Positions 12,000 through 45,564 of a stretch of 64,000 nucleotides of DNA are shown here, one piece after another (position 1 is the stretch's first letter; each line of letters starts with the position of its first letter). The notes below the pieces were generated by a model. It was not told the DNA's origin and did not search any database. It was given only the letters and a program-made list of their open reading frames with translations. This stretch comes from Thalassotalea nanhaiensis (GTDB taxonomy: Bacteria; Pseudomonadota; Gammaproteobacteria; Enterobacterales; Alteromonadaceae): contig NZ_CP134146.1 of assembly GCF_031583575.1 (NCBI RefSeq), positions 930,001 to 994,000 of the forward strand, given 5' to 3'. The position numbers were made by a program, and so were the translations under genes.

Positions 12000-12494
12000 C
12001 TATGCGAGCTCCCCAACATTTATTTTATAAGTGGCAAGCGTGTCGGTAAGCTTGGTAAATTTTTCACTGTTCATTCGGCCATATACTTTGTCAGCAACTT
12101 TTACTGAGGGAGCGCATGCACAGTTGCCTAGGCAGTAAACTGGCTCTAAGGTAAAGTTGTTGTCTTTAGTTGTTTGATTATATTCAATGTTAAGTTGAGA
12201 TTGAGCTGCAGCCTCTAATGCACCGGAGCCCATTGACTGACAAGCCTCGCCTCGGCATATTTCGATAACGTGACGACCTGTTTGTTTCATTCTAAAGTGA
12301 GCATAAAAGCTTATCACGCCAAAAATTTCAGCATCGCTTTGATTTAATGAATAAGCAACGATAGATATTGCTTGCTCAGGAATGAAGCCAAATTCATGTT
12401 GAATATCATGAAGAATAGGTAACAGAGCACCAGGTAAGTTTTTTTTATTATCAACAATCTGTTGAATTTTATAGTTTATTTCATCAGTGGTCAT
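12000..12494 (-). CDS. fdsG: NAD-dependent formate dehydrogenase gamma subunit FdsG (NuoE-like)
   Basis: 164 residues, the thioredoxin-fold [2Fe-2S] subunit. Four ligand cysteines are seen in ICRGEACQS and YCLGNCACAPS. The helical N-terminal part (ALLPILHDIQHEFGFIPEQA) is typical of NuoE. It is the first gene of the operon fdsG-fdsB-fdsA-fdhD-fdsD. That order matches the canonical fdsGBACD arrangement. Confidence 0.95.
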   Translation of the reverse strand: MTTDEINYKIQQIVDNKKNLPGALLPILHDIQHEFGFIPEQAISIVAYSLNQSDAEIFGVISFYAHFRMKQTGRHVIEICRGEACQSMGSGALEAAAQSQLNIEYNQTTKDNNFTLEPVYCLGNCACAPSVKVADKVYGRMNSEKFTKLTDTLATYKINVGELA

Positions 12495-27894: not shown

Positions 27895-27974
27895 ATAGGA
27901 CTAAGGTCACTTTTTACTAGCCCTATTGTCATAAAGTTTCGCTTAAATTGAATCACAATTTATGGAGAAACTTT

Positions 27975-30194
27975 ATGACACCTAAACCCTCATTCAAACA
28001 TTATTTAACCGGTTCAGCACTCTGGCTTACCTACCTTATTGTTGGCTCTATGCTTGTTAGTAGCTTTGTTGTATACGCGAGTACAAATTCCAACTCAAAC
28101 CAGATTACAAGCCAATATTCAAAAACTATAGACTATAACAACATTGAATCAGGCAGCTTATTTCTTAAAAGTGAGCAGGGAATAACGCATTCCTTAGTTA
28201 CGGCAAGTGACTATAACGTTGATGTGAATGCCATGATGGCAAGGGTGGTTCTGACTCAAAGTTTCACCAACACATCACCTGATTGGGTAGAAGGAATATA
28301 TGTGTTTCCCCTGACTGAAGGTGTCGCCGTTGATGATATGGAAATGTGGATTGGGGAGCGGTTTATTAAAGCCGAAATACAAGAGCGAAAACAGGCAAAG
28401 AAAACTTACGAAGCTGCCAAAAAAGCAGGAAAGAAAGCCAGCTTAGTCGAGCAAGAAAGACCTAATCTGTTTACTACCTCGGTCGCAAATATTCCCCCTG
28501 GAGAGTCGATCAAAATTAAAATCAGCTACTTGCAACAAGTACCGTTACTTGCCAACACATTTAGCTTACGCCTGCCATTAACAATAACCCCCCGATATAT
28601 TCCACAAGAGTACACCGAGGCGAAACTGGAATATGAACATCATCAAACAGCTCAGCAAATAGAACAACAAACTACCCCCATTGATATAAAACAAGGGCTT
28701 GGCTGGTCAGTGAATACTTTTACCGTACCTGATGCATCTCGAATCACGCCATTTCAAGTGTCTGAGAGCTTAGGTCAAAAAGCAGCTATCTCAGTAAATT
28801 TGAATGTTGGCTTGCCCTTGTCAAAAGTTGAAAGCGAACACCATAAGATTAATCACTCAGCCGTTGAACAAACTCATAAAATTTCGCTAGACAGTAGCAG
28901 AGTGGAAATGAATCGTGATTTTGTACTAAATTGGACGATACAAGAAAGTGCTAGACCGCAAGCTGCGTACTTTAAAGAAAGCAAGCAAGGCTTTGATTAT
29001 GGTTTATTCATGATAACTCCGCCAACAGCGCCGCAAACTAATATCAATATTCCAAAAGAGATGATTTATATCATTGATACTTCTGGCTCAATGGGAGGGG
29101 TTGCAATTGAGCAGGCAAAATTAGCGTTAGACTTTGCTGTTAAGCAATTAACGCCTACGGATAAATTTAACATTATTGAATTCAATTCAACTTATACAAC
29201 ACTGTTTAATCAATCTGAAGTTGCTTCAAAAGCGTCGGTGAATCGAGCGATTAATTGGATTAGCCACCTGCATGCAAACGGCGGCACTGAAATGGTCGGT
29301 GCATTAAACGCCGCAACCGGGCATTCTGCTGCTTCTGGCTTTATTAGACAAATAGTGTTTATTACCGATGGTAGTGTGGGCAACGAAGAGCAATTGTTTC
29401 GAATCATTAAATCTAAGCTCTATGATTCCAGATTACACACCGTTGGCATTGGCAGTGCACCAAATAGTCATTTTATGGAGCGTGCAGCTGAACTAGGCAG
29501 AGGGTCTTTTAATTACATTGGTGATATCGGTTCCGTCCAGCAAAAAATGAGTGAATTATTTAATCGTATTGCCCAGCCTATGCTAACTGATATTACGATT
29601 AATTGGCCCAGTGAACAGGTTGAACTATTACCGAAAAAAATTCCTGACTTATATGCGACAGAGCCACTCATCATAAGCGCTCGTTGGCCTTCAAACTCTT
29701 TACTAAATAACTCTGCAAAGATGACTGTAAGTGGTGAAATCAACCAACAACTTTGGTTACAAGATATGCCCGTTAATAATGCAATGACACAATCAGGAAT
29801 AGCAACATGGTGGGCGAGACAAAAAATAAAACATCTCAATTACGAACTATATGACACGGATGAAAAAAATGAGAAGCAAGGCATCATTAATAAAATTACA
29901 GACATAGCAATTAGTAACCGTTTGCTTTCCAAGTACACCAGTTTTGTTGCCGTGGAAAAAACGCCAAGCAGAACGCTTGCTGACATTTTGAAAAAACGCC
30001 CTGTGGCTAATGCTATGCCAAAAGGTTCAACTCAAAAAATCCCATTAGCTCAAACCGCAACCAATGCTAATGTTTTATTTAAAGTAGGGTTGTTAATGTT
30101 ATTGATCACCGGCTTATGCATGTTAGCAACTCGAACGAGGCGTCAATACCAGCAATTAACTCTGAGCAACAAATCAAAGAAGATTAAGGAATAA
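27975..30194 (+). CDS. Marine proteobacterial sortase target protein (VIT and vWA domains)
   Basis: 739 residues from ATG at 27975, which has a GGAG site; the TTG at 27948 is rejected. Signal peptide/TM (about 12-35), a VIT (vault/inter-alpha-trypsin) domain (about 50-190), then a vWA domain with MIDAS motif DTSGSMGG (about 370). The C-terminus has a sorting signal: LAQTA at about 691-695, a hydrophobic helix (VGLLMLLITGLCML) and basic TRTRRQ. The class GN sortase next door should cleave here. The motif differs from the LPXTG-like form by Ala for Pro. Confidence 0.93.
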   Translation: MTPKPSFKHYLTGSALWLTYLIVGSMLVSSFVVYASTNSNSNQITSQYSKTIDYNNIESGSLFLKSEQGITHSLVTASDYNVDVNAMMARVVLTQSFTNTSPDWVEGIYVFPLTEGVAVDDMEMWIGERFIKAEIQERKQAKKTYEAAKKAGKKASLVEQERPNLFTTSVANIPPGESIKIKISYLQQVPLLANTFSLRLPLTITPRYIPQEYTEAKLEYEHHQTAQQIEQQTTPIDIKQGLGWSVNTFTVPDASRITPFQVSESLGQKAAISVNLNVGLPLSKVESEHHKINHSAVEQTHKISLDSSRVEMNRDFVLNWTIQESARPQAAYFKESKQGFDYGLFMITPPTAPQTNINIPKEMIYIIDTSGSMGGVAIEQAKLALDFAVKQLTPTDKFNIIEFNSTYTTLFNQSEVASKASVNRAINWISHLHANGGTEMVGALNAATGHSAASGFIRQIVFITDGSVGNEEQLFRIIKSKLYDSRLHTVGIGSAPNSHFMERAAELGRGSFNYIGDIGSVQQKMSELFNRIAQPMLTDITINWPSEQVELLPKKIPDLYATEPLIISARWPSNSLLNNSAKMTVSGEINQQLWLQDMPVNNAMTQSGIATWWARQKIKHLNYELYDTDEKNEKQGIINKITDIAISNRLLSKYTSFVAVEKTPSRTLADILKKRPVANAMPKGSTQKIPLAQTATNANVLFKVGLLMLLITGLCMLATRTRRQYQQLTLSNKSKKIKE

Positions 30195-30196
30195 GT

Positions 30197-30925
30197 ATGA
30201 GTGATATTAAATTTATTCCAGTAACCGATTTGTCAAAATTGAATTGCAGCTCAGCCAGTCAGAAATCGACTGAAACAAAAAACATAAGCGCTGCCAAAAT
30301 AATGAAGATTTTATCTGTATTAATTTCGTTAGGTTGTATCGCCAGTGCGTCTTTCATTCACATTAAGGCGTATACGGCTCAGTATCTATTAAGCCAGGCT
30401 TGGCAAAAAAGTGACGTCAGCAACGTTGCAAAGCCATGGCCTTGGTTTGACAGCCATCCTGTGGCAAAAATTCACTTTCCAACCTTAGATGATGAGCATA
30501 TTGTTTTGGCGGGAGACTCGGGACAAGCTTTGGCTTTTGGTCCTGGCTTAAGTCACTTAAGTGCACAACCCGGTGAAGAGGGCACTTTAGTCATCTCTGG
30601 ACACCGAGATACTCATTTTAGTTTATTGCAATATTTAAACCCAACAGAAAATGTAGTACTTGAAAGTATGTCTGGCGTACAGCATCGCTATAAAATAAAT
30701 AAGATCAGCGTGATTGATATTAACAAAGATGACATTGTACAAACTGATTTTGAACGATTATTACTGGTAACTTGTTTTCCATTTGATAGCGATGATGCTA
30801 ATACTCCATTAAGATATGTAATTGAAGCTTTTCCTGTTGATAATAATCAACCCTCACAACTCATTGCCAAGCAAATGTCAGTGCCAGTAAAGGTATATAG
30901 TAAAAGTGCACCAATAACGTTCTAA
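30197..30925 (+). CDS. Class GN sortase
   Basis: 242 residues. An N-terminal TM helix (about 35-52, IMKILSVLISLGCIASASFI) anchors a periplasmic sortase domain. Catalytic residues are visible: His in ISGHRDTHF (about 135), Cys in LLLVTCFPF (about 192) and Arg in TPLRYVIE (about 205). It is the transpeptidase for the preceding substrate, 2 bases upstream, and probably attaches it to an envelope partner. Sortases are rare in Gram-negative bacteria. This one-substrate arrangement is the proteobacterial dedicated type. Confidence 0.95.
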   Translation: MSDIKFIPVTDLSKLNCSSASQKSTETKNISAAKIMKILSVLISLGCIASASFIHIKAYTAQYLLSQAWQKSDVSNVAKPWPWFDSHPVAKIHFPTLDDEHIVLAGDSGQALAFGPGLSHLSAQPGEEGTLVISGHRDTHFSLLQYLNPTENVVLESMSGVQHRYKINKISVIDINKDDIVQTDFERLLLVTCFPFDSDDANTPLRYVIEAFPVDNNQPSQLIAKQMSVPVKVYSKSAPITF

Positions 30926-31102: not shown

Positions 31103-32482
31103 ATGAACTCACAACAAAATAATAAATTTTCAATAAAAGAGAGTGCAGGTTATGCCTGTGGCGATGTTGCGTCTAATTTCTATTGGCGCGTTTTTGACGT
31201 ATTTCTCTTCATTTTCTATACCGATGTATTTGGGCTATCTGCTGCTGCTGTAGGTACCATGATGCTGGTAACCCGGTTAATTGATGCGTTTTCTGATCCA
31301 TTGATGGGCGCTGTAGCTGACCGAACAAAAACTCGCTGGGGAAAATTCAGGCCATACTTACTTTGGGGAATTATTCCAATCGCAGCCGCTGGCGTATTAA
31401 CCTTCACAGTACCTGACTTAGATGACAGTGGTAAGTTAATTTGGGCCTATTGTACTTATATATTCATGATGTTGGCCTATACGTTTATTAATGTGCCATA
31501 CGGTGCGTTGCTTGGTGTGATCACCGGTGATAGTCAACAGCGTACGCTGTTAACCAGCTTTCGCTTTATTGGTGCCTTTTCAGGAGGAAGTTTAGTTGCG
31601 TATTTAACGCCGGAGCTAGTGAGCTTTTATGGCGGTAATGATCAAGTGTTAGGTTGGCAATTAACCATGCTAACCTACGGCATCGTTGCCGGTGTTCTGT
31701 TTTTTATCAGTTTTATTTCTACCACTGAACGTATTCAACCAGTAGCCACTAAAAGCACACCCGTGCTCCAAGACATCAAAGACTTATTCAATAATAAACC
31801 TTGGCTGATATTATTTTCATTGGCATTAATTATCATGATGACCATTACGTTGCGCGGTAGTTCTGGCACGTTTTATTTTAAGTATTTTGTTGAACGAGAA
31901 GACTTAATTGGTAGCTTCAGCTTAGCGTATATGTTGTCTTTGGCTGTAGGTGCTGCGAGCACGCCATTACTGACCAAACTTTGTGATAAAAAAACATTAC
32001 TGTTCATTTTGATGATTGCGGTTACCGTATTGTCGACATTGTTTTATTTTGTGTCAAAAGATCAGCTCTGGCTTATATTTACCCTGCAAATTGGCATTGG
32101 TTTTTGTTTAGGGCCTAAGTCACCATTAGTCTTTTCTATGTATGCCGATACTGCTGATTTTTCTGAATGGAAAACCGGGCGCAGAGCAACGGCAATGATT
32201 TTTTCAGCAGCCGCTTTTGCACAAAAGTTAGGGGGCGCATTGGCTGGGGCTATGATGGGATGGTTACTCGCGAGTTTAGGCTATGTTGCCAATCAAGTTC
32301 AAAGCTTGGAGTCACAGCACGGCATTGTATTATTAATGACGTTATTGCCTGCAATGTTTGCGTTAATTTCAGTGTTTGTGATCCGCTTTTATCCATTAAG
32401 CGATCGTAATGTTGTCGATATACAAGACAAGCTTAATATGCAAAAACATACCATAGCGAAAGAGCTTGCCAAGAATGTATAA
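31103..32482 (+). CDS. MFS sugar transporter, GPH (glycoside-pentoside-hexuronide):cation symporter type
   Basis: 459 residues with about 12 TM helices. GPH family signs: YACGDVASNFYWRVFDVFLFIFYTDVFG at the N-terminus, the RLIDAFSDPLMGAVADRTKTRWGKFRPYLLWG loop, and DTADFSEWKTGRRATAM in the second half. It probably imports a disaccharide or aldobionate with Na+ or H+. It is first in an operon with the GH94-gluconokinase gene, whose ATG lies 8 bases before this stop. Cellobionate is therefore a reasonable guess for its substrate. Confidence 0.9.
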   Translation: MNSQQNNKFSIKESAGYACGDVASNFYWRVFDVFLFIFYTDVFGLSAAAVGTMMLVTRLIDAFSDPLMGAVADRTKTRWGKFRPYLLWGIIPIAAAGVLTFTVPDLDDSGKLIWAYCTYIFMMLAYTFINVPYGALLGVITGDSQQRTLLTSFRFIGAFSGGSLVAYLTPELVSFYGGNDQVLGWQLTMLTYGIVAGVLFFISFISTTERIQPVATKSTPVLQDIKDLFNNKPWLILFSLALIIMMTITLRGSSGTFYFKYFVEREDLIGSFSLAYMLSLAVGAASTPLLTKLCDKKTLLFILMIAVTVLSTLFYFVSKDQLWLIFTLQIGIGFCLGPKSPLVFSMYADTADFSEWKTGRRATAMIFSAAAFAQKLGGALAGAMMGWLLASLGYVANQVQSLESQHGIVLLMTLLPAMFALISVFVIRFYPLSDRNVVDIQDKLNMQKHTIAKELAKNV

Positions 32483-35354
32483 ACCAACAAATAAACTGGT
32501 TTTTGTAGATGACACAAGACAACGAATAGAGCTGTACAGCCCAACAAAAATGCCTGAAGCAGGCAGTTTTTTGTGGAATAAACAAATGATGGTGCAATTT
32601 AATTGTCGTGGTTATGCTGTTGGACAGTTTATGCAACCAGAGCCAAGTAAATACGCTTATGCCCCAAATTTGGAAGCTAAAACCTTTATGCAGCCAGAGC
32701 ATGCGTATTATGCAAATCATCCGGGTCGATTTTTTTATATTAAAGATGAAGATACTGGTGAAGTATTTTCAGCACCTTTTGCTCCTGCCAAAATGTCTCT
32801 CGATTATTTTTGTTTTTCGGCTGGTCAACATGACATTAGTTGGCACATCGAAGCGCTGAATATTTCCGTTAAAATCACGGTAAGCCTTAGTGAATCTGAT
32901 GCGATTGAAATGTGGGAATTAACGGTAAGCAACTTAGACAGTAAAGCTCGAAACGTAAGTATTTACCCTTATTTTACTGTTGGTTATATGTCATGGATGA
33001 ATCAATCAGCAGATTTTCTGCCTGAATTAAATGCCATTGTAGCGACTTGTATCAGCCCATACCAAAAGGTTGAAGAATACTTTGAACGAACAAATTTAAA
33101 AGATAAAACTTATTTAATCGCTGATACCAAGCCTACATCATGGTGCTGTAATCAGAAGGTGTTTGAGGGCAATAGCGACGTATCTTTTCCTGAAGGTATA
33201 AAAGCAGAGACATTAGAGCAAATTAATTCATTGTACGAAGTACCTGCCGCGGTGATGCAATATCAAGAAAGTTTCAAAGCTAAGCAAAGTAAGAGTTATC
33301 GCTTTTTATTTGGGCCTGCAGAACATAACCAACAAATTGCTGATATAAGGGATAAATACTTTGGTACATCAAACTTGTTCGAGCAAGAAAAACATAATTA
33401 TGAACAATATATAAAGCAAAGCTCTGGACCAATAAATATTGAATCTGGCGATACGGTTTTCGATCAGTTTGTCAATTATTGGCTGCCCAGACAGGTGTTT
33501 TATCATGGTGATGTAAACCGCTTAACAACCGATCCGCAAACTCGTAATTATTTACAAGATAATCTGGGCATGAGCTATATTTCGCCTCAAACAGCTCGTC
33601 AGGCATTCATTACTGCATTAAGCCAACAAAATCAGACAGGAGAGATGCCAGATGGTATTTTGATCCACCCTGATGCCAGCTTAAAATACATTAATCAAGT
33701 GCCACATACCGATCATTGTGTATGGCTGCCAATTTGCATTCAAGCATATTTAAATGAAACCAATGACATTAGCTTATTAGATGAATTAGTGCCCTTTGCT
33801 GATAATAAAAGTACCCAAACCATTAAACAGCATATTGAGCTGGCGTTAGACTGGTTAGTCGCCTCATGTGATGAACGAGGGCTTAGTTATATTGCTCAGG
33901 GGGATTGGTGCGACCCGATGAATATGGTTGGCTATAAAGGTAAAGGAGTATCTACTTGGCTTACCTTAGCAAGCGCTTATGCGATAAATACTTGGGTTGA
34001 TGTTTGTGCTGACTATCAAATTGACATCAATCTAAAATACAGTTTTTTTGCTGGTTTCCTTAATCAAGCGGTGAATAAACATTGTTGGGAAGGGCAGTGG
34101 TATAGCAGGGGGATCTCCGATGATAATATTAGCTTTGGCGTTGGCGATGACACAGAAGGGAGAATTTATCTTAATCCACAAAGTTGGGCAATACTTTCAG
34201 GAGCAGTTTCTACTGAGAATAAAGCTAAATTGCTTGCTCAAATAGAACTGCAATTAAACACTCCATTTGGCACAATGATGTTGGCGCCGAGTTATACCAA
34301 AATGCGCGAAAACGTTGGCAGGCTTACTCAAAAGTTTCCGGGCACCGCCGAAAACGGCTCTATCTATAACCATGCGGCAATTTTTTACGCATACAGTCTA
34401 TTTAAAATTGGCGAAGCTGAAAAAGCGTTTTCGGTAATGAGAAAAATGCTACCGGACGATAATTTTATCCAGCGTGGACAATTACCTAATTTTATTCCTA
34501 ATTATTATCGCGGGGCTTTTTATCAACACCCAAGAACTGCAGGGCGTTCAAGTCAGTTATTTAATACGGGGACAGTATCTTGGTTCTATCGCTGTGTGAT
34601 TGAAGGTATAGCAGGTCTGGTGGGCAACAAAGGCGATTTACTGATCAAGCCACAACTACCAAATCAATGGTCAAAATTAAACGTTATTCGAGCGTTTAAC
34701 GGGGCTACCTTTAATGTAGAAATTTTAAAAACAAAAAAAGTAAGCCAACAAACAGTCCACATCAACGGTAATTATGAAGCATCTAATCGTATTGCTAACA
34801 TTACCGCAGGTAAGACCTATCAAGTACAAGTGTTACTACCATTGCCACCAGAGCTGATCATTATAATGGGAGTTAGTGGTTGTGGTAAATCAACTATTGG
34901 CAGGCAAATTAGCAAACAGTGTAGTTATAAGTATTTTGAAGCAGATGATTTTCATTCTGAAGAGGCTATCGAATTAATGGCGCAGGGCATACCGCTAACA
35001 GATAAACAACGGGAACCCTGGATAGATGAAATGTGCACCTGCTTAGAAACAGAGTTTATTAAGAAAAATGATTGCGTGTTGGCATACTCTGGCCTTAGAG
35101 CAGAGCACCGGGAAAAATTTAGACAGCTGGGTTTTAATACCCGTTTTGTTTTTTTAGACGTGGATGAACAACAGTTACAGGTACGGTTGAAAAATAGACC
35201 CTCACATTTCTTTAAAGAGGAGTTACTTGCAAGCCAGTTTTCTGCCTTGCAACGTCCCAATGATGAGAGTGATGTTTTTGTTGTTGATGCTAATCACTCG
35301 CAAGCGTCTGTTTTAGGGCAGATTGTTTCTTATATTAAAAATGGAGAAGCATGA
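32475..35354 (+). CDS. Fusion: GH94 phosphorylase (probable cellobionic acid phosphorylase) plus gluconokinase
   Basis: 959 residues from ATG at 32475; a TTG at 32466 is rejected. Residues about 1-790 form a GH94 glycoside phosphorylase with a DWxD catalytic-acid signature, GDWCDPMNMVGYKGKG (Asp at about 477 and 480). The conserved TAENGSIYNHAAIF segment follows. Residues about 794-955 form a complete GntK-type gluconokinase: P-loop MGVSGCGKS (799-806), DDFHSEEAIELMAQGIPLTD, and SHFFKEELLASQFSALQRP. Phosphorolysis of cellobionate gives glucose-1-phosphate and gluconate, which the second domain would phosphorylate to 6-phosphogluconate. The GH94 subtype is inferred partly from the fusion itself. 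Confidence 0.82.
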   Translation: MYKPTNKLVFVDDTRQRIELYSPTKMPEAGSFLWNKQMMVQFNCRGYAVGQFMQPEPSKYAYAPNLEAKTFMQPEHAYYANHPGRFFYIKDEDTGEVFSAPFAPAKMSLDYFCFSAGQHDISWHIEALNISVKITVSLSESDAIEMWELTVSNLDSKARNVSIYPYFTVGYMSWMNQSADFLPELNAIVATCISPYQKVEEYFERTNLKDKTYLIADTKPTSWCCNQKVFEGNSDVSFPEGIKAETLEQINSLYEVPAAVMQYQESFKAKQSKSYRFLFGPAEHNQQIADIRDKYFGTSNLFEQEKHNYEQYIKQSSGPINIESGDTVFDQFVNYWLPRQVFYHGDVNRLTTDPQTRNYLQDNLGMSYISPQTARQAFITALSQQNQTGEMPDGILIHPDASLKYINQVPHTDHCVWLPICIQAYLNETNDISLLDELVPFADNKSTQTIKQHIELALDWLVASCDERGLSYIAQGDWCDPMNMVGYKGKGVSTWLTLASAYAINTWVDVCADYQIDINLKYSFFAGFLNQAVNKHCWEGQWYSRGISDDNISFGVGDDTEGRIYLNPQSWAILSGAVSTENKAKLLAQIELQLNTPFGTMMLAPSYTKMRENVGRLTQKFPGTAENGSIYNHAAIFYAYSLFKIGEAEKAFSVMRKMLPDDNFIQRGQLPNFIPNYYRGAFYQHPRTAGRSSQLFNTGTVSWFYRCVIEGIAGLVGNKGDLLIKPQLPNQWSKLNVIRAFNGATFNVEILKTKKVSQQTVHINGNYEASNRIANITAGKTYQVQVLLPLPPELIIIMGVSGCGKSTIGRQISKQCSYKYFEADDFHSEEAIELMAQGIPLTDKQREPWIDEMCTCLETEFIKKNDCVLAYSGLRAEHREKFRQLGFNTRFVFLDVDEQQLQVRLKNRPSHFFKEELLASQFSALQRPNDESDVFVVDANHSQASVLGQIVSYIKNGEA

Positions 35355-36115
35355 TGAAAGTACCGTCATTAAACCAAGTGATAGTTTTGTCAGGCTTATT
35401 TATTTCAACACTAGGTGTTGCTGACGAAAATCTAGTAAGTGTGAACAAAGCCGAATCTGCAATTGTGATTGATGGTGTTGCCACTGAACCAGCTTGGAAA
35501 AATGCCCCATGGTTAGCGTTAGATAAACATATTGTTGGGGAGTACCCTAGCTCTGATGACTTCTCTGGGCGGTATAAATTGCTTTGGGATGAACAGTATT
35601 TATATTTAATGGCTGAACTTAACGACGATGTATTGTTCGATCAATACGCAAACCCCACTGAAAAGTATTGGGATGATGACAGCTTAGAGGTTTTTATCGA
35701 TGAAGATGCCTCTGGTGGAAACCATCAATTTAGTTTTAATGCTTTTGCTTATCATGTCGCATTAGACAATCAAGTAGCTGATATAGGCCCCAATAATCCC
35801 GACGGCAGTACCAACTTCATTTTGCTTAATGAACATGTGCAAAGTAGGTGGCAGCGCAGCGAAACAAAGCCCTATTCGATTACCTGGGAGCTTGCCATAA
35901 GTTTATACGATGATAGTTTCAGCTTAACGGGTAAGCATACGCCAGTGACTTTATCGAAAGGTAAGGTGGTTGGTTTTATGTTGGCCTATTGTGATAATGA
36001 TGGCAGCAAGGTACGTGAACATTTTGTTGGCTCACATGATATTAAACCGAAAAATGGCGATAAAAACTTAGGTTATATCGATGCCAGCGTATTTGCTAAA
36101 GTTAAACTGCAATAA
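35351..36115 (+). CDS. CBM9-like carbohydrate-binding protein, secreted
   Basis: 254 residues with a signal peptide (about 1-24, ending GVAD). A single CBM9/DOMON-like beta-sandwich follows: IVIDGVATEPAWKNAPW, LLWDEQYLYLMAELNDD, WDDDSLEVFIDEDASGG and the C-terminal VVGFMLAYCDNDG. Such proteins bind sugar ends in the periplasm or outside. It overlaps the fusion gene by 4 bases (ATGA), so it is part of the same operon. A second ATG at 35354 is equally possible. Confidence 0.87.
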   Translation: MMKVPSLNQVIVLSGLFISTLGVADENLVSVNKAESAIVIDGVATEPAWKNAPWLALDKHIVGEYPSSDDFSGRYKLLWDEQYLYLMAELNDDVLFDQYANPTEKYWDDDSLEVFIDEDASGGNHQFSFNAFAYHVALDNQVADIGPNNPDGSTNFILLNEHVQSRWQRSETKPYSITWELAISLYDDSFSLTGKHTPVTLSKGKVVGFMLAYCDNDGSKVREHFVGSHDIKPKNGDKNLGYIDASVFAKVKLQ

Positions 36116-36156: not shown

Positions 36157-37527
36157 ATGAACGTATTTAAAAGTATCCTTTATTTTACTTTCCTCAATGC
36201 TATTTGGGCTTGCTCAGATCACAATGATACTCATCAATTAAAACCAACGGCTGAAACAATTGTCATTAAAAAGAGTGAATATAAGGAAAAGTTGCACGGT
36301 TTTTGGCTAGGGCAAAATATCGCCAATTGGACCGGATTAATTACTGAAATGGATAAAGTCGGCACACCTGATACTATGCCATTTTATACCGATACTGACT
36401 GGGGAAGAAAAGATTTACCGGCAATATGGGGTGAGGGAGTGCCCCATTCAGATATTATTGATTTTTACTTTCAACAAGAAGGTAAACCATGGGGGGCTGA
36501 CGACGATACAGATATAGAGTATATGTATCAGTATTTACATGAACAGCACAAGACTAGTTTGCTCAGTGCAGAGCAGATACGAAAGGGCTGGTTAACACAT
36601 ATCTATTCTGAAACAGATGCTCCACTTTTTAAAAAGTTTGCTGACTCAAAACCGATGCAAGAAAACTTTTTATGGGAATCAAATCAACAAGCTAGGATTT
36701 TAATGGAGCAAGGCATGCTACCGCCTCATACTAGCGAACCTGAAAATAATAACAAATATATGATGATAGATGCGCAATTAACAACCGAGGTTTTTGGCTT
36801 GTTAGCACCTGCGAGAGCTGATGTGGCATTAAAAATTGCTCATTTGCCAATAAGAACATCTGCTAAATATGATGCTCAGTTGGCCGCAGAATTTTATGTT
36901 GTTATGCATTCTTTGGCTGCTAATGTTGATAATCGTCAATCGATGAAAACGCAAACTCAATGGCTTGCTAAGCAAGCAAGACAATATTTGCCAGACTCCT
37001 CTGTTGTTGCAAAAATGTATGACTTTATTAAAGAATCATATGACACCAACCCAGATAAAAATAACTGGGAAAAAACCCGCGACGCTGTTTACTTACGTTA
37101 TCAAATAGAAAAACTTGATGGATATAATTATAAAGACCCATTCGAGTCTGGAATTAATTTTGCGGCAAGTTTAGTGAGCCTTTTCTATGGTGAAGGTGAT
37201 ATAAAGCGTACGATTCAAATTGGTACTTTAGTTGGTTGGGATTCTGATAACCCAACGGCAACTTGGGGCGGATTATTAGGGTTTATGATAGGTAAAAAAA
37301 GTGTTGAAAAAGCATTCGAACAATATCATTTGTCAGATACGTATTGGATACACAGAACACGGCGTAACTTTAAGGATAGAACGCCAAACATAGACGGTGA
37401 AGATACCCTTCATGGTATGGCTGATCGAGGTTTAAGTATTGTTGACCGTGTTGTTATAGAGCAAATGAACGGAAAACTAAATGATGCAGGCGATGCATGG
37501 GAAATACCGCTACATCAGCCTGATTAA
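36157..37527 (+). CDS. ADP-ribosylglycohydrolase-fold lipoprotein
   Basis: 456 residues. A short signal peptide ends in a lipobox-like NAIWAC (Cys 19), so the protein is probably lipidated and periplasmic. The body shows ADP-ribosylglycohydrolase hallmarks: FWLGQNIANWTG, the acidic metal motif WGADDDTDIEY, and near the end VGWDSDNPTATWGGLLGFMIG. Exported members in sugar loci cannot reach cytoplasmic ADP-ribosyl proteins, so a glycan substrate is more likely. Last gene of the operon, 41 bases after the CBM9 gene. Confidence 0.85.
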   Translation: MNVFKSILYFTFLNAIWACSDHNDTHQLKPTAETIVIKKSEYKEKLHGFWLGQNIANWTGLITEMDKVGTPDTMPFYTDTDWGRKDLPAIWGEGVPHSDIIDFYFQQEGKPWGADDDTDIEYMYQYLHEQHKTSLLSAEQIRKGWLTHIYSETDAPLFKKFADSKPMQENFLWESNQQARILMEQGMLPPHTSEPENNNKYMMIDAQLTTEVFGLLAPARADVALKIAHLPIRTSAKYDAQLAAEFYVVMHSLAANVDNRQSMKTQTQWLAKQARQYLPDSSVVAKMYDFIKESYDTNPDKNNWEKTRDAVYLRYQIEKLDGYNYKDPFESGINFAASLVSLFYGEGDIKRTIQIGTLVGWDSDNPTATWGGLLGFMIGKKSVEKAFEQYHLSDTYWIHRTRRNFKDRTPNIDGEDTLHGMADRGLSIVDRVVIEQMNGKLNDAGDAWEIPLHQPD

Positions 37528-37569: not shown

Positions 37570-38565
37570 TTACTTGGTAGCGATAGAGTTTCGAGTTATG
37601 AGTTTTGGCTCAAACACATTTTGAATAGCAATATCATCTTGTTTATAAACGTTTTTCAATATGATATCAGTTGCCATCTTACCCATTAAATATGCCGAGT
37701 TATCTATGGTGGTTAGCTCAGGATATAAATAGCTGGCAAACATGTTGTTATCAAATCCAACGATAGATAAGTCTTTAGGTAAATTTAAGCCTTGCTTTCT
37801 AGCTGCTTTCATCGCACCTGATGCCATTTCATCGTTACCACATGCAATCGCTGTAAACTTTGTCGGCGCGGCGGTTAGCTCGTTATAGCCTTCAAAACCA
37901 GTACCTTCATTAAAATCACCTTGATAAAAAAGATCATTTTGATAGGTAATGTCATGTTCGGCAAGTGCTCGTTGGTGACCTACAAGGCGATCATGAGAGT
38001 CAACTTTCCAGTCTGGACCAGAAATATAGGCAATATCTTTATGCCCTTTTTCTATCAATGCTTTTGTCGCTAAATAACCACCTAGTTCGTTATTTAAACT
38101 GATGCAGTTTTGGGCCATTTCATCAACTTTTCGGTTAACAAGTACTGTAGGAATAGTTTTAGAAATACTAACAAGGTAATCATCATCCACTGAGTCTGTT
38201 AGTAAAATTAACGCATCGCATTTTCGACTAATTAAAAACTCAATGGCACTTTTTTCTTGAGCTTCATCACTATGGCCGGTGGTAATAATAATGTGTTTGT
38301 TGGCTAAGCGCAGTTCGTTTTCAATACCGTCCATAATGAATCCGAAGAAGCCACCATGTAATTCTGAAACTAACACACCAACACTGTTGGTACGGTTAGA
38401 TGCTAACGACTGCGCAATTGAGTTAGGACGGTAACCTAACTCATCCATGGCCTGTAATACTTTAGTTCGTGTTTTTTCACTTACCTTTGCATTGTTATTC
38501 ATTACTCGCGAAACTGTTGCAAGTGACACACCTGCTAATTCCGAGACTTCATAAATTGTGGCCAT
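37570..38565 (-). CDS. LacI-family transcriptional regulator
   Basis: 331 residues. N-terminal HTH (about 1-50; TIYEVSELAGVSLATVSRVMNNNAKVSEKTR), hinge helix (RPNSIAQSLASNRTNSVGVLV), then a periplasmic-binding-protein-like sensor domain (IACGNDEMASGAMKAARKQG, DLSIVGFDNN). It very likely binds the three TGxAAGCGCTTACA palindromes at 31.06, 41.53 and 41.59 kb. It converges with the ADP-ribosylglycohydrolase gene and is followed on the same strand by the second GPH transporter. No such palindrome is seen upstream of its own start. Confidence 0.93.
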   Translation of the reverse strand: MATIYEVSELAGVSLATVSRVMNNNAKVSEKTRTKVLQAMDELGYRPNSIAQSLASNRTNSVGVLVSELHGGFFGFIMDGIENELRLANKHIIITTGHSDEAQEKSAIEFLISRKCDALILLTDSVDDDYLVSISKTIPTVLVNRKVDEMAQNCISLNNELGGYLATKALIEKGHKDIAYISGPDWKVDSHDRLVGHQRALAEHDITYQNDLFYQGDFNEGTGFEGYNELTAAPTKFTAIACGNDEMASGAMKAARKQGLNLPKDLSIVGFDNNMFASYLYPELTTIDNSAYLMGKMATDIILKNVYKQDDIAIQNVFEPKLITRNSIATK

Positions 38566-38653: not shown

Positions 38654-39982
38654 TTAACTAGTGGCCTGGTTAAGTTGCTGATGTATATCCGCAACTTTTT
38701 TGTCATCCAAAATATACCAGCGCATAATGAATGCAACCAATAGTGACCCTATTGCAGGAAATAAAGTAAACGATAGCAATATGCCTTGTTTAGTTTCTTC
38801 CGTTTGTTCCATATCTGCTTGGTAGCCATAATATGCAAGTGCCCAGCCTGCGAGTGCCCCACCAAGTGCTAAACCTAGTTTTATAAAGAACACTACTGAC
38901 GAGTAGACAATACCGGTAATTCTAACGCCGGTTTTCCATTGGCCATAATCAATGGTGTCGGCCATTTTAGCCCATAATAATGGAGTCGCCATCTCAAGGA
39001 AAAAGCGCCATAAGAAAAACACCACAAATGCCAAGGTGATTTGCTCGCTACCAATAAAGTAACTCAAGGCACAAATTATTGCGGCAATGGTTTGTAAGGT
39101 TATGTAGGCCTTAATTTTACAGACTTTTTTGGCTAACGGTTGAGCAATAGCAACACCTGCGATACTACCAATCATCCCTAAAGTGATAAAAGCAGACACT
39201 AAATCTTCACGCCCAAGAAAATATTTTACGTAATAAACAGATAACGAAAAACGCAATATTTGCCCGGTTAGTAAAGACACTGCAGCTAAACATAAAACAC
39301 GCCATTGATCATTTTGCCAAAGTGATTTGAAGTCTTCTTTAAAGCTTGATTTTTGACTAATCGGTGTGACGATACGTTCTTTAGTTCCGGCGAAACAGAG
39401 TAAAAACATAATGACGCCCATGATGCTCATTACGATCATGGTGTATTGATAGCCTTTGGCATTGTCGCCATTACCAAAGTACTCTACCATTGGCATAGTA
39501 CATGCGGCGATAAACGCTCCACCCAACATGGCAAAAATAAAACGATAAGTTTGTACCGTAACTCGCTCTTTAGGATCGGCAGTAAGCACACCACCTAAAG
39601 CCGAGTAAGGGATATTAATAGCAGTGTAAACCATCATTAATAATGTGTAGGTTACAAATGCATATATTAAACGACCACTTTCTGAAAAATCAGGTGTGGT
39701 AAAGGCAAGTACACTAATTAAACCAAACGGAAGAGCCAGCCATACTAGGTAAGGGCGAAACTGACCATACTTTGTGCGCGTTCTGTCGGCAACAGCGCCC
39801 ATTAATGGATCTGTTATAGCATCAACAACACGTACCAATAAAAACATGGTACCAACGGCAGCAGGGGCCAAGCCTACAACATCGGTATAATAAACCAATA
39901 AAAACATCATTACCGTTTGCCAAATAATATTACTGGCGGTGTCACCTAATCCATAAGCAACTTTTTCTTTTACTGATAGCAT
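38654..39982 (-). CDS. Second MFS GPH-type sugar:cation symporter
   Basis: 442 residues with about 12 TM helices. Same family as the transporter at 31.1 kb (SVKEKVAYGLGDTASNIIWQTVMMFLLVYYTDVVG, DAITDPLMGAVADRTRTKYGQFRPYLVW, DTIDYGQWKTGVRITGIVY), but clearly diverged. It lies just downstream of the GH1 beta-glucosidase gene on the same strand, with 47 bases between them. It probably imports a beta-glucoside for that enzyme. Confidence 0.9.
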   Translation of the reverse strand: MLSVKEKVAYGLGDTASNIIWQTVMMFLLVYYTDVVGLAPAAVGTMFLLVRVVDAITDPLMGAVADRTRTKYGQFRPYLVWLALPFGLISVLAFTTPDFSESGRLIYAFVTYTLLMMVYTAINIPYSALGGVLTADPKERVTVQTYRFIFAMLGGAFIAACTMPMVEYFGNGDNAKGYQYTMIVMSIMGVIMFLLCFAGTKERIVTPISQKSSFKEDFKSLWQNDQWRVLCLAAVSLLTGQILRFSLSVYYVKYFLGREDLVSAFITLGMIGSIAGVAIAQPLAKKVCKIKAYITLQTIAAIICALSYFIGSEQITLAFVVFFLWRFFLEMATPLLWAKMADTIDYGQWKTGVRITGIVYSSVVFFIKLGLALGGALAGWALAYYGYQADMEQTEETKQGILLSFTLFPAIGSLLVAFIMRWYILDDKKVADIHQQLNQATS

Positions 39983-40029: not shown

Positions 40030-41361
40030 TTACGATCTTTGCGCAAGTAGGTCGCTGTATGCTTGACCGCTTGCCTTCACAGTACGCTGCTGAGTTTCAT
40101 AATCTACATAGACTATACCAAAACGTTTACTGTAGCCTAGAGCCCATTCAAAATTATCCATTAAACTCCAAGCAAAATAACCTTTTACGTTAACGCCTTG
40201 TTCTATGGCGTCATGCAATGCATTTAAATGTTGTTGGTAATATGCAATGCGGTTTTGATCGTCGACCTGCTCGTTTTCAATGGTGTCAGGCATAGCACAA
40301 CCATTTTCAGTGATATAAATAGGCGGCAGCTGATATTTTTCATTTAAACTGGTTAACAACTCAGTAAACGCTTGCGGGTATATTTCCCAGCCCATATCTG
40401 TAAGGGGAACATTCTCTGGCGGAATAACCATAAATGGTTCAACTGCATCTGCTTTAAACACTTCTCTGGTATAAAAGTTAACGCCTAAGAAGTCCATTTT
40501 TTTACAAATGATGTCCATATCTCCGTCAACGATGTCAGGCTTATGAGCATCGTCTAGCAAATCAATAGTATCAGGATAACGGCCATCAAATAACGGCTTG
40601 ATATACCATTGATTGTTATAATCGTCAGCAAATTTAGTTGCCGCTAGATCTTCTGGAGAGTCAGTTGCAGGGTAAGCAGGAGTAAAGTTTAAAACGATAC
40701 CATTCATGCTGTCAGGGCTATATTTATTAAGCACATCCATGGCTAAACCATGAGCAAGTAAAATATGATGAGCAGCCTTACGGCCATATTCTTTACCAAC
40801 TTTTCCCGGTGCATGAACACCAACTTCATAACCTAGATATGCACTACAAAATGGTTCGTTAAATGTAGCGTAGGAATGTACTCGGTTACCTAATGCTGTT
40901 GTTACCAACTTGGCATACTCAGCAAACTTATAGGCTGTTTCTCTGTTTAGCCAACCACCGGTATCTTCTAAATATTGAGGTAAATCCCAATGATAAAGCG
41001 TTACAAAAGGTTTAATGCCTTTGGCATTAAGGCCATCTAATAATTTAATATAAAAATCTAAGCCTTGTTGGTTAGCGCTACCATCTTGATTCATAACTCT
41101 TGGCCAAGAGATAGATAATCGATATGCATCAACGCCTAACTTGTCAATAAGCTCTATATCTTGTTGCCATAAATTGTAATGATCACAAGCAATGCTGCCA
41201 TCACTTTTGTCTGAAATTGTGCCTTCTTTTTGGCAGAAGGTGTCCCAAATACATGGCAATCGAGAATTAATGCCTCCCTCTATCTGAAAAGATGCAGTAG
41301 CAACACCATAGAGAAAATTTTTGCTTAGCATTTTTGAGCGTTGTGGTAACGAGATTTTCAT
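40030..41361 (-). CDS. GH1 family beta-glucosidase
   Basis: About 443 residues from ATG at 41361; an in-frame TTG at 41373 would add four. No signal peptide, so cytoplasmic. GH1 features: N-terminal FLYGVATASFQIEGG, acid/base Glu in YATFNEPFCSAYLG (about 170), nucleophile Glu in IYITENGCAMP (about 352), and the WSLMDNFEWALGYSKRFGIVYVDY end. It hydrolyses cellobiose-type beta-glucosides to glucose. Two LacI-type palindromes lie in the upstream divergent region. Confidence 0.95.
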   Translation of the reverse strand: MKISLPQRSKMLSKNFLYGVATASFQIEGGINSRLPCIWDTFCQKEGTISDKSDGSIACDHYNLWQQDIELIDKLGVDAYRLSISWPRVMNQDGSANQQGLDFYIKLLDGLNAKGIKPFVTLYHWDLPQYLEDTGGWLNRETAYKFAEYAKLVTTALGNRVHSYATFNEPFCSAYLGYEVGVHAPGKVGKEYGRKAAHHILLAHGLAMDVLNKYSPDSMNGIVLNFTPAYPATDSPEDLAATKFADDYNNQWYIKPLFDGRYPDTIDLLDDAHKPDIVDGDMDIICKKMDFLGVNFYTREVFKADAVEPFMVIPPENVPLTDMGWEIYPQAFTELLTSLNEKYQLPPIYITENGCAMPDTIENEQVDDQNRIAYYQQHLNALHDAIEQGVNVKGYFAWSLMDNFEWALGYSKRFGIVYVDYETQQRTVKASGQAYSDLLAQRS

Positions 41362-41528
41362 ATCAGACGACAAGTCCTGTTTTAATTTATTATAAATTAT
41401 TCCTAGACCATCAAACCTGTAAACAGTCTAGGAATATTAGCGTCTTACGGCTCAACAGTAGCTAGGTAAATGCTAGCTAGGTACGTAAGTTTATTATTGT
41501 TGTCATTCTTATTATTGTTATATAACTC

Positions 41529-41727: not shown

Positions 41728-42996
41728 ATGGCTGGTGCAACGATTCCGTCAACGGAAAGTAACATATCATCTCAATCTACAGGCAACTACAATTTTGCCC
41801 TAGTATCCCTAACATCATTATTTTTTATGTGGGGTTTTATCACCTGTTTAAATGATATTTTAATTCCGCATTTAAAAGGAATATTTGATTTATCATATGC
41901 ACAAGCGATGTTGGTGCAATTTTGCTTTTTTGGCGCTTACTTTATTGTTTCAATTCCAGCTGGCAAAGTCGTTAAAAGCTTTGGCTTTCAACGCGGTATT
42001 GTTATCGGTTTGATGATTGCTGCACTAGGTTGTTTAGGGTTTTATCCCGCTGCTTCAATGCACAGTTACCCAGTATTTTTGATGGCGTTCTTTGTGTTAG
42101 CGTCTGGCATTACTTTATTACAGGTTTCAGCCAACCCTTATGTAAGTAGCTTAGGTAACCCTAAAACAGCATCTTCCCGTTTAACACTTACTCAGGCGTT
42201 TAATTCTTTAGGTACAACTGTTGCTCCTTATTTTGGTGTTTACTTAATTTTAAATGAAGCTGTTGAAGGGGTTGCTAGTGCTCAAGAAAAAGCAGCTGCA
42301 GTGCAAATGCCTTACGTTATGTTAGCGGCAATGCTATTAATATTGGCGGCAGTTTTTGCTTGGTTAAAGCTTCCTCATATTGCCGCCGAAGAAGAAACTG
42401 AAGAAAAACCGCAAATAGATGGTAGTGCTTTACAGTTTTCTCACCTTGCTTTAGGTGCGGTAGGTATATTCGTTTATGTCGGTGCTGAAGTCTCTATTGG
42501 CAGTTTTTTAGTTAACTTTTTAGGAGAAACACACATTGCTGGTTTAGAAGAAGCTGAAGCCGCGAAGTATATAGTTTATTACTTTGGCGGTGCAATGGCA
42601 GGCCGGTTTTTAGGTGCCTTGGTAATGCAATTTTTACCTGCAGGTAAAGTCTTAGCCTTTAATGCGTTTGCGGCTTGTGTACTTGTATTAATGGCGATGT
42701 TAGGGTCTGGCGCACTTGCTATGTGGTCTATCATATTGGTTGGTTTCGCTAACTCAATTATGTTCCCTACAATCTTCAGCTTAGCGGTTATCGGTTTAGG
42801 TAAACACACCTCACAAGGCTCAGGAATTTTATGTATGGCAATTGTGGGGGGAGCTTTAGTACCCGTTCTACAGGGCGTTTTTGCTGATTCAATTGGCTTA
42901 CAAGCGTCTTTCTTCTTACCAATTATTTGTTATGTATTCATTGCATATTATGGTTTGGTCGGTTCAAAACCCAAAGCAACATTAATCGCAGAATAG
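41728..42996 (+). CDS. Sugar MFS transporter, FHS family (glucose/galactose type, GluP-like)
   Basis: 422 residues with about 12 TM helices. FHS family signs: [30 protein letters not shown], the [19 protein letters not shown] loop, [14 protein letters not shown] and [17 protein letters not shown]. It probably imports glucose released by the GH3 enzyme encoded 12 bases downstream. The divergent gene is the GH1 beta-glucosidase. Confidence 0.92.
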
Positions 42997-43008: not shown

Positions 43009-45564
43009 ATGAAAAATTTAAAATTAAAATTATTACTACCTACTCTTATTATCGCTGTTGTTGGTTGCTCTAAAGAGCAGTCAGAAGAAAGTCATGTTGA
43101 GAGAACAGACGATGCTGCAGCTAAACTTCAGCATAATATTGATATTTGGCCAACGCTCGATATACCCGTTAAACGAGATGATGTCCTTGAGCAAAAAATA
43201 AAAGACATATTGTCAACTATGACACTTGAGCAAAAGGTCGCGCAGATGATCCAACCGGAAATTCGCGATATCACGGTAGAAGATATGCGCACCTACGGGT
43301 TTGGCTCTTATTTAAATGGTGGTGGCGCATTTCCTAATAACGATAAACATGCAACCCCAAGTGATTGGATTAAACTAGCAGAAGATATGTATCAAGCATC
43401 AATCGACGATTCGATAGATGGCAATAGTATCCCAACCATATGGGGCACAGATGCAGTGCATGGCCATAACAATGTTATTGGTGCTACGTTATTTCCACAC
43501 AATATTGGTTTAGGAGCTGCCAACCATCCAGAGCTTATCGAGAAAATTGCTGCAATAACAGCTACCGAGGTTATGGTTACCGGTATTGACTGGGTGTTCG
43601 CGCCAACGGTAGCCGTTGTTAGAGATGACCGTTGGGGACGCACCTACGAAGGATACTCGGAAGATCCTGAGATTGTTCGTGAATATTCCGCATCAATAGT
43701 GAAAGGGTTACAAGGGCATCCTGATAAAGACTTTTTAGGTGATAGTCGCGTAATATCTACGGTTAAGCATTTCTTGGGTGATGGCGGCACTGAAGGCGGC
43801 GATGATCAAGGTAACAATATTGCCAGTGAGCAAGAATTATTTGATATTCATGGTCAGGGATATGTTGGCGGTTTAACTGCTGGTGCACAGTCTGTTATGG
43901 CATCTTTTAATAGCTGGCATGGTGAAAAAAATCACGGCAATAAATACCTTTTAACCACGGTTTTAAAAGACAAAATGGGCTTTGATGGGTTTGTTGTTGG
44001 TGATTGGAACGGTCATGGACAAATCCCTGGTTGTACGAATGAAAACTGTAGTCAAACCATTAATGCCGGTTTAGATATTTTTATGGTACCAACCGATGCG
44101 TGGAAACCATTGTATGAAAACACTATCTCGCAAGTTAAATCAGGCGAAATCCCACAAGCACGTATTGATGATGCTGTAAGTCGTATCTTAAGAGTAAAAC
44201 TGCGTGCTGGAATATTTGACAAGCCGAGCCCAGCGAATAGAGCTGTGTCAGGTAAGGTGGAATTAATTGGTGCGCAAGCGCATAGAGATGTTGCTCGCCA
44301 AGCCGTAAGAGAATCGTTAGTGTTACTGAAAAACCAAGGCAATATACTACCACTGAACCCTAAAACAAATATTTTGGTTGCGGGTGATGGCGCCGATAAT
44401 ATCGGTAAGCAATCCGGGGGTTGGTCTATAACATGGCAAGGTACTGGTAATGAAAACTCAGACTTCCCTGGTGGAAGCTCTATTTACAGTGGCTTTGAAC
44501 AAGTGGTAAGTGCTGCTGGCGGTAACATTGAATTGTCGGTTGAAGGTGAATATACAGCTAAACCTGATGTTGCCATTGTTGTATTTGGTGAAGAGCCATA
44601 TGCAGAAGGCACAGGCGATATAGATAATTTAGATTATCAGCGTGGTAATAAAACAGACTTAGCATTATTAAACAAACTAAAAGCACAAGGTATACCCGTT
44701 GTGTCAGTGTTTATTTCTGGTCGTCCTATGTGGGTAAATGCTGAATTAAACGCTTCAAATGCTTTTGTTGCTGCCTGGTTGCCAGGAAGTGAAGGAGCTG
44801 GGGTGAGTGAAGTATTATTTACTAAAGCTGATGGATCTATCAATTATGACTTTACCGGTAAGTTGTCTTTTTCATGGCCAAACTCAGCAACTCAAGCTGT
44901 GCTAAACCGACATGATGAAAACTATAAGCCATTATTACCATATGGTTTTGGTTTGAAATACGGCGACGAAAATGTCTTGGAAAGTGATCTTAACGAGGTT
45001 GTAGCGCAAGCAAACAACGTTAATAAAGAGTTGGTGTTATTTGAACAAACTGCAAAAGCGCCGTGGCAATTGACTGTTTCTTCAGATGAACAATCTGAAC
45101 CGGTAACAAGCTCTATTATTGAGTTACCGGCAATAACACTTAAAACCATGGATAAAGATATCCAAGAAGATGCACGCACGGTTACGTTTACAGGCAATGG
45201 CAAAGGCGAGGTAAGTTTAGCAAGCAATTTTGTTGAAGATTTACGCTCGTATGTAGAAAGCGAGGCTGCAATTTCATTCGCAATTCGCAAAGAAGATGTA
45301 ACTACGGCTAAGGTAATGCTCGAAATGCACTGTGAAGAAGACTGCTTCGGCGCTGTAGATATTAGTTCACAATTTGCTGCTATGGCTGTAAACGAGTGGC
45401 AAGAATTCAGTGTTGATTTAAACTGCTTTATTCAAAATGGTACTAATATGGCAAGAGTAAATAAGGCTTTTGTAATATCGAGTAACGATGAAGTATCGCT
45501 ATCATTCGCCGGTATTAAACTTGAGCCAAACTCTGCACAAAACGCTGATATTAATTGCCAATAA
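43009..45564 (+). CDS. GH3 family exo-beta-glucanase/beta-glucosidase lipoprotein
   Basis: 851 residues. A lipoprotein signal ends IAVVGCSKEQ (Cys 20). The GH3 N-terminal barrel contains WGTDAVHGHNNVIGATLFPHN, the RWGRTYEGYSEDPE motif, VKHFLGDGGTEGG, and nucleophile Asp in FVVGDWNGHGQI. The C-terminal GH3 domain has RESLVLLKNQGNILPL and GEEPYAEGTGD. The last about 180 residues form an ExoP-like beta-sandwich. This architecture matches exo-1,3/1,4-beta-D-glucan glucohydrolases. It would release glucose in the periplasm or outside, for the transporter upstream. Confidence 0.94.
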   Translation: MKNLKLKLLLPTLIIAVVGCSKEQSEESHVERTDDAAAKLQHNIDIWPTLDIPVKRDDVLEQKIKDILSTMTLEQKVAQMIQPEIRDITVEDMRTYGFGSYLNGGGAFPNNDKHATPSDWIKLAEDMYQASIDDSIDGNSIPTIWGTDAVHGHNNVIGATLFPHNIGLGAANHPELIEKIAAITATEVMVTGIDWVFAPTVAVVRDDRWGRTYEGYSEDPEIVREYSASIVKGLQGHPDKDFLGDSRVISTVKHFLGDGGTEGGDDQGNNIASEQELFDIHGQGYVGGLTAGAQSVMASFNSWHGEKNHGNKYLLTTVLKDKMGFDGFVVGDWNGHGQIPGCTNENCSQTINAGLDIFMVPTDAWKPLYENTISQVKSGEIPQARIDDAVSRILRVKLRAGIFDKPSPANRAVSGKVELIGAQAHRDVARQAVRESLVLLKNQGNILPLNPKTNILVAGDGADNIGKQSGGWSITWQGTGNENSDFPGGSSIYSGFEQVVSAAGGNIELSVEGEYTAKPDVAIVVFGEEPYAEGTGDIDNLDYQRGNKTDLALLNKLKAQGIPVVSVFISGRPMWVNAELNASNAFVAAWLPGSEGAGVSEVLFTKADGSINYDFTGKLSFSWPNSATQAVLNRHDENYKPLLPYGFGLKYGDENVLESDLNEVVAQANNVNKELVLFEQTAKAPWQLTVSSDEQSEPVTSSIIELPAITLKTMDKDIQEDARTVTFTGNGKGEVSLASNFVEDLRSYVESEAAISFAIRKEDVTTAKVMLEMHCEEDCFGAVDISSQFAAMAVNEWQEFSVDLNCFIQNGTNMARVNKAFVISSNDEVSLSFAGIKLEPNSAQNADINCQ

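Follow-up and report, generated by a model that had tools for sequence, protein, structure and literature searches.

A single gene joining a cellobionic acid phosphorylase-type domain to a gluconokinase in Thalassotalea nanhaiensis and a few related genera

Why should a sugar phosphorylase and a gluconokinase share one polypeptide? The question is raised by a 64,000-nucleotide stretch of the Thalassotalea nanhaiensis genome (contig NZ_CP134146.1, positions 930,001 to 994,000; hereafter the window), in which an earlier, sequence-only reading had noticed a glycoside hydrolase family 94 (GH94) phosphorylase of the cellobionate type fused to a gluconokinase. Our analysis finds the two predicted enzymes tethered in one protein and makes it very probable that this one polypeptide carries out two steps of cellobionate catabolism, a pathway running from import through phosphorolysis and gluconate phosphorylation to entry into the Entner-Doudoroff route.

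The frame (32475-35354, forward strand) translates into 959 residues with a single stop at its end, confirming that it is uninterrupted; an alternative in-frame TTG upstream, at 32466, would add three residues. Domain models searched with the full protein match over their cut-offs in the expected order: the GH94 supersandwich at residues 80-280 (Pfam, 72.5 bits against a cut-off of 23), the GH94 catalytic domain at residues 320-714 (Pfam, 204.8 bits against 27) and GntK at residues 795-953 (TIGR01313 of NCBIfam, 135 bits against 113.75). A GH94 phosphorylase of about residues 15-790 is followed by a complete GntK-type kinase of about residues 794-957, with a linker near zero. The two motifs picked out by the sequence-only reading are where it placed them, the DWxD site as D477, W478, C479 and D480 and the P-loop as GVSGCGKS at residues 799-806. 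The genome itself is a single contig of 4.31 Mb, and a search of it with the whole protein (E 0.001) matches the fused gene alone.

The best solved relative of residues 15-790 among GH94 structures is 4zle (1095 bits), which the table of a review lists as the cellobionic acid phosphorylase (CBAP) of Saccharophagus degradans, SdCBAP (PMC8950772). The remaining GH94 structures reach at most 191.5 bits, with cyclic glucan synthase at 191.5, chitobiose phosphorylase at 165.7, cellobiose phosphorylase at 123.9, cellodextrin phosphorylase at 45.6 and laminaribiose phosphorylase at 38.7 bits. To compare the acceptor site, 130 distinct CBAP sequences were aligned with four other GH94 sequences, the latter being uncharacterised proteins from the genomes of relatives. 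Residues G476, D477, W478 and D480 are kept in all 130 CBAP sequences, D480 of the GDWCD motif presumably being the general acid. R616 and K620 are likewise present in 130/130 and in none of the four other sequences; their counterparts in SdCBAP, R609 and K613, are the residues that we take to contact the carboxylate of gluconate. Q355, also kept throughout the 130, aligns with SdCBAP Q347, which is described as reaching the +2 region (PMC5309861, in part). Judged by these pairwise scores and acceptor-site residues, the protein sides with CBAP over the GH94 enzymes of neutral disaccharides, and the cellobionate-type assignment that had been proposed for it is well supported.

E. coli GntK can be aligned with the C-terminal part across 164 residues, at 97.8 bits; this part scores 90.9 bits with 3t61, labelled a gluconokinase, and 80.9 bits with 4eun, labelled a thermoresistant glucokinase. 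It keeps the P-loop from G799 to K805 together with D824, H827, R846, W849, S872, R879, R908, H911 and Q921, and each of these nine single residues is found in 13/13 fused sequences. With TIGR01313 over its cut-off and the GntK family residues all present, the predicted intact gluconokinase stands, as does its likely conversion of gluconate to 6-phosphogluconate. Could the kinase nevertheless be dead, or merely a structural or regulatory appendage? It does diverge faster than its partner, at 50-72% identity against 68-81% for the phosphorylase part in four pairs. However, its motif residues are kept, and the proportion of nonsynonymous differences (pN) lies well under that of synonymous ones (pS) when the window is compared with each of four relatives in the genus: 0.157-0.324 against 0.73-0.80 in the kinase and 0.105-0.219 against 0.61-0.75 in the phosphorylase, with synonymous sites close to saturation in these pairs. 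The pattern in both halves looks like purifying selection. The genome has no other GntK, and no FGGY gluconokinase, above the respective cut-off. A dead kinase is very improbable.

Within the kinase, the motif S-G-L at residues 871-875 (35085-35099) occurs in 13/13 fused, 28/39 adjacent and 17/23 other kinases of CBAP loci; of 10 distinct kinases whose loci lack CBAP, one has it (E. coli GntK has S-A-L). These counts take no account of kinship among the kinases. The motif may be a mark of a CBAP-linked kinase group.

Across 15 genomes of the genus, a GntK match over cut-off is found in eight, exactly the eight with an intact CBAP. The six without CBAP have none (four reach 20.9-25.5 bits and two have no match), and one genome with a broken CBAP (G011) has a partial kinase match of 61.9 bits. 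FGGY-type gluconokinases over cut-off are found in 0/15. The fused kinase is the sole GntK over the family cut-off in its own genome and, by the GntK and FGGY models together, its only gluconokinase. Because GntK is present exactly where CBAP is intact, a co-occurrence counted without regard to the relatedness of the genomes, gluconokinase in this genus appears to serve the CBAP pathway. Of 14 genus genomes, 12 have Edd over its cut-off, and in the window's own it reaches 990 bits, in agreement with the suggested entry into the Entner-Doudoroff route.

The same fusion occurs elsewhere. The gene is fused and intact in six of the 15 genus genomes (G000, which is the window's own, G002, G005, G007, G010 and G013), and in four of these relatives (G005, G010, G007 and G013), whose proteins are 65-79% identical to that of the window, the frame runs through uninterrupted, with no frameshift separating the domains. 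CBAP and gntK are adjacent genes in G012, and six genus genomes have no CBAP. A broken fused copy lies in G011 (locus L172; assembly 87% complete), with the phosphorylase spread over several frames and the kinase shortened; decay and sequencing error cannot be told apart in this copy. In a family sample, 103 of 395 genomes match at E 1e-60 and 13 of the 103 have an intact fused frame, namely the six genus genomes and G206, G074, G114, G237, G169, G151 and G193, where matches lacking locus sequence were judged on match span and open frame only. An order sample yields matches in 36 of 394 genomes, with fusion by span in G000 and G151 only, and a class sample in 5 of 369, with fusion in G000 only. 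A scan of named genomes gave 512 relatives, and among the best 80 of these five are fused: those of a Thalassotalea sp. metagenome-assembled genome (MAG; L084), Thalassomonas sp. M1454 (L085), Psychrosphaera saromensis (L087), Psychrosphaera sp. B3R10 (L099) and a gammaproteobacterial MAG (L089). Thalassotalea, Thalassomonas and Psychrosphaera are marine genera.

The search for further GH94-GntK fusions was thus productive, and it qualifies the statement of the sequence-only reading that no protein of this architecture was known: other public genomes hold the same fusion, while none of the papers listed in open-access searches, by its title or the start of its abstract, announces a fusion of CBAP with gluconokinase (subscription papers lie outside these searches). 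The word 'fusion' is absent from the main texts of PMC4537572 and PMC8950772, the passages of PMC7178133 on 'fused' and 'kinase domain' give no such enzyme, and the main texts of two Thalassotalea genome papers, one of them PMC10237450, do not contain 'phosphorylase'. With its two domains, the fusion is a natural variant of a pathway whose two steps were already known, and it has been seen in a few related genera.

An error of sequencing or assembly might have joined two genes here, given that gntK lies directly 3' of CBAP on the same strand, as a separate abutting or overlapping gene, in 39 of the 130 distinct CBAP sequences ('directly' meaning -130 to 300 bases between stop-to-stop frames, with start codons not fixed). 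This explanation is refuted by the intact fusions in other genomes: the fused frame is intact in 13 of the 130 distinct sequences, from different genomes, four of them single contigs (G000, G002, G005 and G010). Its probability is negligible. None of the three findings that would have refuted the sequence-only reading has emerged: pairwise scores and acceptor-site residues do not side with a neutral disaccharide, the kinase keeps its family residues, and no frameshift parts the two domains.

The adjacent genes bear instead on the origin of the fusion. Gene order was counted for genes like those of the window's cluster only, in 85 distinct loci of at least 10 kb; a GPH gene precedes CBAP in 65 of them, and an unfused CBAP is followed by gntK in 21, with CBM9 next in 10 of these 21. 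After the fused gene, CBM9 comes next in all 12 fused loci of at least 10 kb. In view of these gene orders and of the 39 abutting or overlapping pairs, the fusion most likely arose by the joining of two genes that lay side by side in a shared operon. The stretch between the two domain matches measures 0-11 residues in the fused proteins other than that of G002 (L173 / L014), whose linker is 75 residues long and whose fusion was possibly a separate event. In three further loci (L035, L059 and L088), CBAP and gntK share a frame and are separated by exactly one stop, one step from fusion. Read-through across this stop was considered and rejected; an ATG follows it by 12, 18 and 21 bases, and plain neighbouring genes account for the arrangement.

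How often the joining took place was addressed with trees. The fused state needs four changes on each of them: on the CBAP tree of 99 of the 130 sequences, where starred branches force at least one; on a CBAP tree of 40 of the 130, where they force at least two; on the kinase tree of 52 sequences, with at least one; and on a concatenated tree of 41 of the 52, with at least two. Holding all fused sequences as one clade is not rejected by the approximately unbiased (AU) test (p-AU 0.422), and the concatenated set favours the one-clade tree by 22.8 log units (p-AU 0.789); two smaller unions of fused sequences are not rejected either (p-AU 0.435 and 0.409). Several origins are therefore not claimed, and anything from one to four is possible.

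In the route that we propose, the adjoining GPH symporter would import cellobionate, which the GH94 part, by its close homology to assayed enzymes, would split with phosphate into alpha-glucose 1-phosphate and D-gluconate. The GntK part, to go by its family and residues, would then phosphorylate gluconate with ATP, and the resulting 6-phosphogluconate would enter the Entner-Doudoroff route, for which Edd is present. The pathway costs one ATP per two phosphorylated products. The likeliest benefit of fusion would be that both activities are supplied at a fixed 1:1 ratio and that quick removal of gluconate pulls the reversible phosphorolysis forward. Saccharomyces cerevisiae given the CAP and transporter of Neurospora crassa consumed cellobionate once gluconokinase was added, and the authors conclude that gluconokinase was limiting (passages of PMC4537572), which fits a benefit of tying the kinase to the phosphorylase. 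The fused protein may also be a dimer, since SdCBAP is listed as one (PMC8950772, table). Channelling of gluconate between the active sites, the direct passage proposed by the sequence-only reading, may occur but goes beyond the tethering that is seen; that an oligomer hands gluconate from site to site without free exchange, as an arrangement for marine cellobionate users lacking a lytic polysaccharide monooxygenase (LPMO), is a rather unlikely extension of the idea.

Several observations weigh against the proposed route. Neither a fused nor a directly downstream kinase is found in 78 of the 130 CBAP sequences, in part because some loci offer no more than about 1.5 kb of flanking sequence. The distance between CBAP and gntK in G009 indicates that the fusion is not needed. 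The kinase misses the E. coli-type equivalogs NF007336 (110.7 of 304 bits) and NF008583 (106.8 of 265 bits), which by these scores makes it a member of the broad GntK subfamily. FGGY kinases under the cut-off are present in all 15 genus genomes (65.4 bits for the best in the window's own), and therefore another gluconokinase is not fully excluded. G012 has CBAP and an adjacent gntK, and no Edd over cut-off. Passages of PMC10237450 report D-gluconate as unused by the tested Thalassotalea strains, which may or may not carry CBAP. LPMO_10 is matched in 0/14 genus genomes (the control matched in 1/14 known genomes), and GH5 has no match in the window's own genome and is matched in 3 of 14 in the genus, in a search that did not extend to GH9, GH8, GH6, pyrroloquinoline quinone (PQQ) dehydrogenases or other oxidases.

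These last results make an LPMO of its own an unlikely source of the cell's cellobionate; the sequence-only reading had named LPMO or cellobiose dehydrogenase as the origin of this sugar acid. Because LPMO_10 was found in none of the 14 genomes and GH5 not in the window's own, the substrate is likeliest scavenged from the work of other microbes. BBE-domain matches, found in seven of 14 genus genomes including the window's own, were considered as a cellobiose oxidase and rejected: their frames of 1018-1067 residues match at 21.7-24.7 bits and resemble large flavin adenine dinucleotide (FAD) oxidases.

The same absence of LPMO_10 and GH5 matches could signal that the phosphorylase acts mainly on another glucosyl-aldonate, for instance from algal beta-glucan, releasing glucose 1-phosphate and an aldonate. 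The cluster does contain GH1 and GH3 beta-glucosidases, the latter with an Exop_C domain, and all fused relatives with genus names are from marine genera. This substrate is nonetheless improbable in view of the strong similarity to SdCBAP and the acceptor-site residues kept in every CBAP sequence. Cellobionate remains our preferred substrate.

Coordinates of the fused gene, its parts and motifs, and the neighbouring genes in the window
Feature	Position	Strand	Basis
Fused gene, CBAP + GntK gluconokinase	32475..35354	+	959 codons and stop; domain and structure matches
Phosphorylase part, residues 1-790, GH94, CBAP type	32475..34844	+	residues 15-790 against 4zle, 1095 bits
GDWCD, residues 476-480	33900..33914	+	G, D, W, D kept in 130/130 CBAP sequences
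RLTQK, residues 616-620	34320..34334	+	R616/K620 align with SdCBAP R609/K613
Gluconokinase part, residues 791-959, GntK family	34845..35351	+	TIGR01313; alignment to solved kinases
P-loop GVSGCGKS, residues 799-806	34869..34892	+	motif reading
GPH-type sugar:cation symporter, probable importer	31103..32482	+	domain/family matches
CBM9-like protein	35351..36115	+	domain match; weak match to CBM9 of xylanases
ADP-ribosylglycohydrolase-fold protein, probable accessory	36157..37527	+	PF03747, 74 bits
LacI/GalR-type regulator, probable cluster regulator	37570..38565	-	domain/family matches, relatives' loci
Second GPH symporter	38654..39982	-	domain/family matches
GH1 beta-glucosidase	40030..41373	-	domain/family matches
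GluP-type glucose/galactose transporter	41728..42996	+	NCBIfam match
GH3 beta-glucosidase with Exop_C domain	43009..45564	+	Pfam match

The fused gene is closely packed with its neighbours: the stop of the symporter gene overlaps its start, and the start of the CBM9-like gene overlaps its stop. The N-terminus of the CBM9-like protein resembles a signal peptide by eye; the protein is probably exported and may bind aldonate-ended sugars, a putative role. The ADP-ribosylglycohydrolase-fold protein, whose N-terminus resembles by eye that of a lipoprotein, sits inside the sugar-use cluster, and a sequence search up to E 1 gives it no relative of solved structure; G010 and G009 also have its gene at their CBAP locus, and G005 lacks it there. 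Elsewhere in the window, a large protein followed by one of 242 residues (27948-30925, forward strand) resembles a marine sortase target and its sortase, and genes at 6692-12494 on the reverse strand resemble an NAD-type formate dehydrogenase cluster, both by eye.

The fusion, seen beside relatives in which the two genes abut, links both steps of the pathway on purely genomic grounds and lends support to the substrate assigned to a set of GH94 genes. It further points towards bacteria that scavenge the oxidised products of cellulose, with no AA10-type LPMO found in them. If the handover of gluconate is true, it would allow marine bacteria without an LPMO of their own to live efficiently on cellobionate freed by other microbes. 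A single genus with fused, adjacent and far-apart pairs offers a clean test of what the tethering of consecutive enzymes buys, and the fused enzyme may be of ready use in production strains that are to be fed on oxidised cellulose.

Each half of the protein, and the pathway as a whole, has a known counterpart. SdCBAP (Sde_0906; PDB 4ZLE, 4ZLF, 4ZLG and 4ZLI; GH94) aligns across almost the entire phosphorylase part, which also keeps its catalytic and acceptor-site residues; as deposited in the PDB, the SdCBAP chain counts 796 residues and lacks a kinase, whereas the fused protein has one. E. coli GntK (PDB 1KNQ and others; TIGR01313) was solved as a stand-alone chain of 175 residues, whereas its homolog here is a C-terminal domain, and its motif S-A-L-K reads S-G-L-R in the fused kinase. 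In Colwellia sp. DT_20 (L092) and Shewanella kaireitica (L134), symporter, CBAP, gntK and CBM9 follow one another in the same order as in the window, but the two enzymes are encoded there by separate genes that overlap or abut. The cellobionate pathway of N. crassa (CBT-1, CAP and gluconokinase), as given in passages of PMC4537572, runs through the same sequence of transporter, phosphorylase and gluconokinase; there they are separate fungal proteins, whereas in the window the phosphorylase and the gluconokinase are fused.

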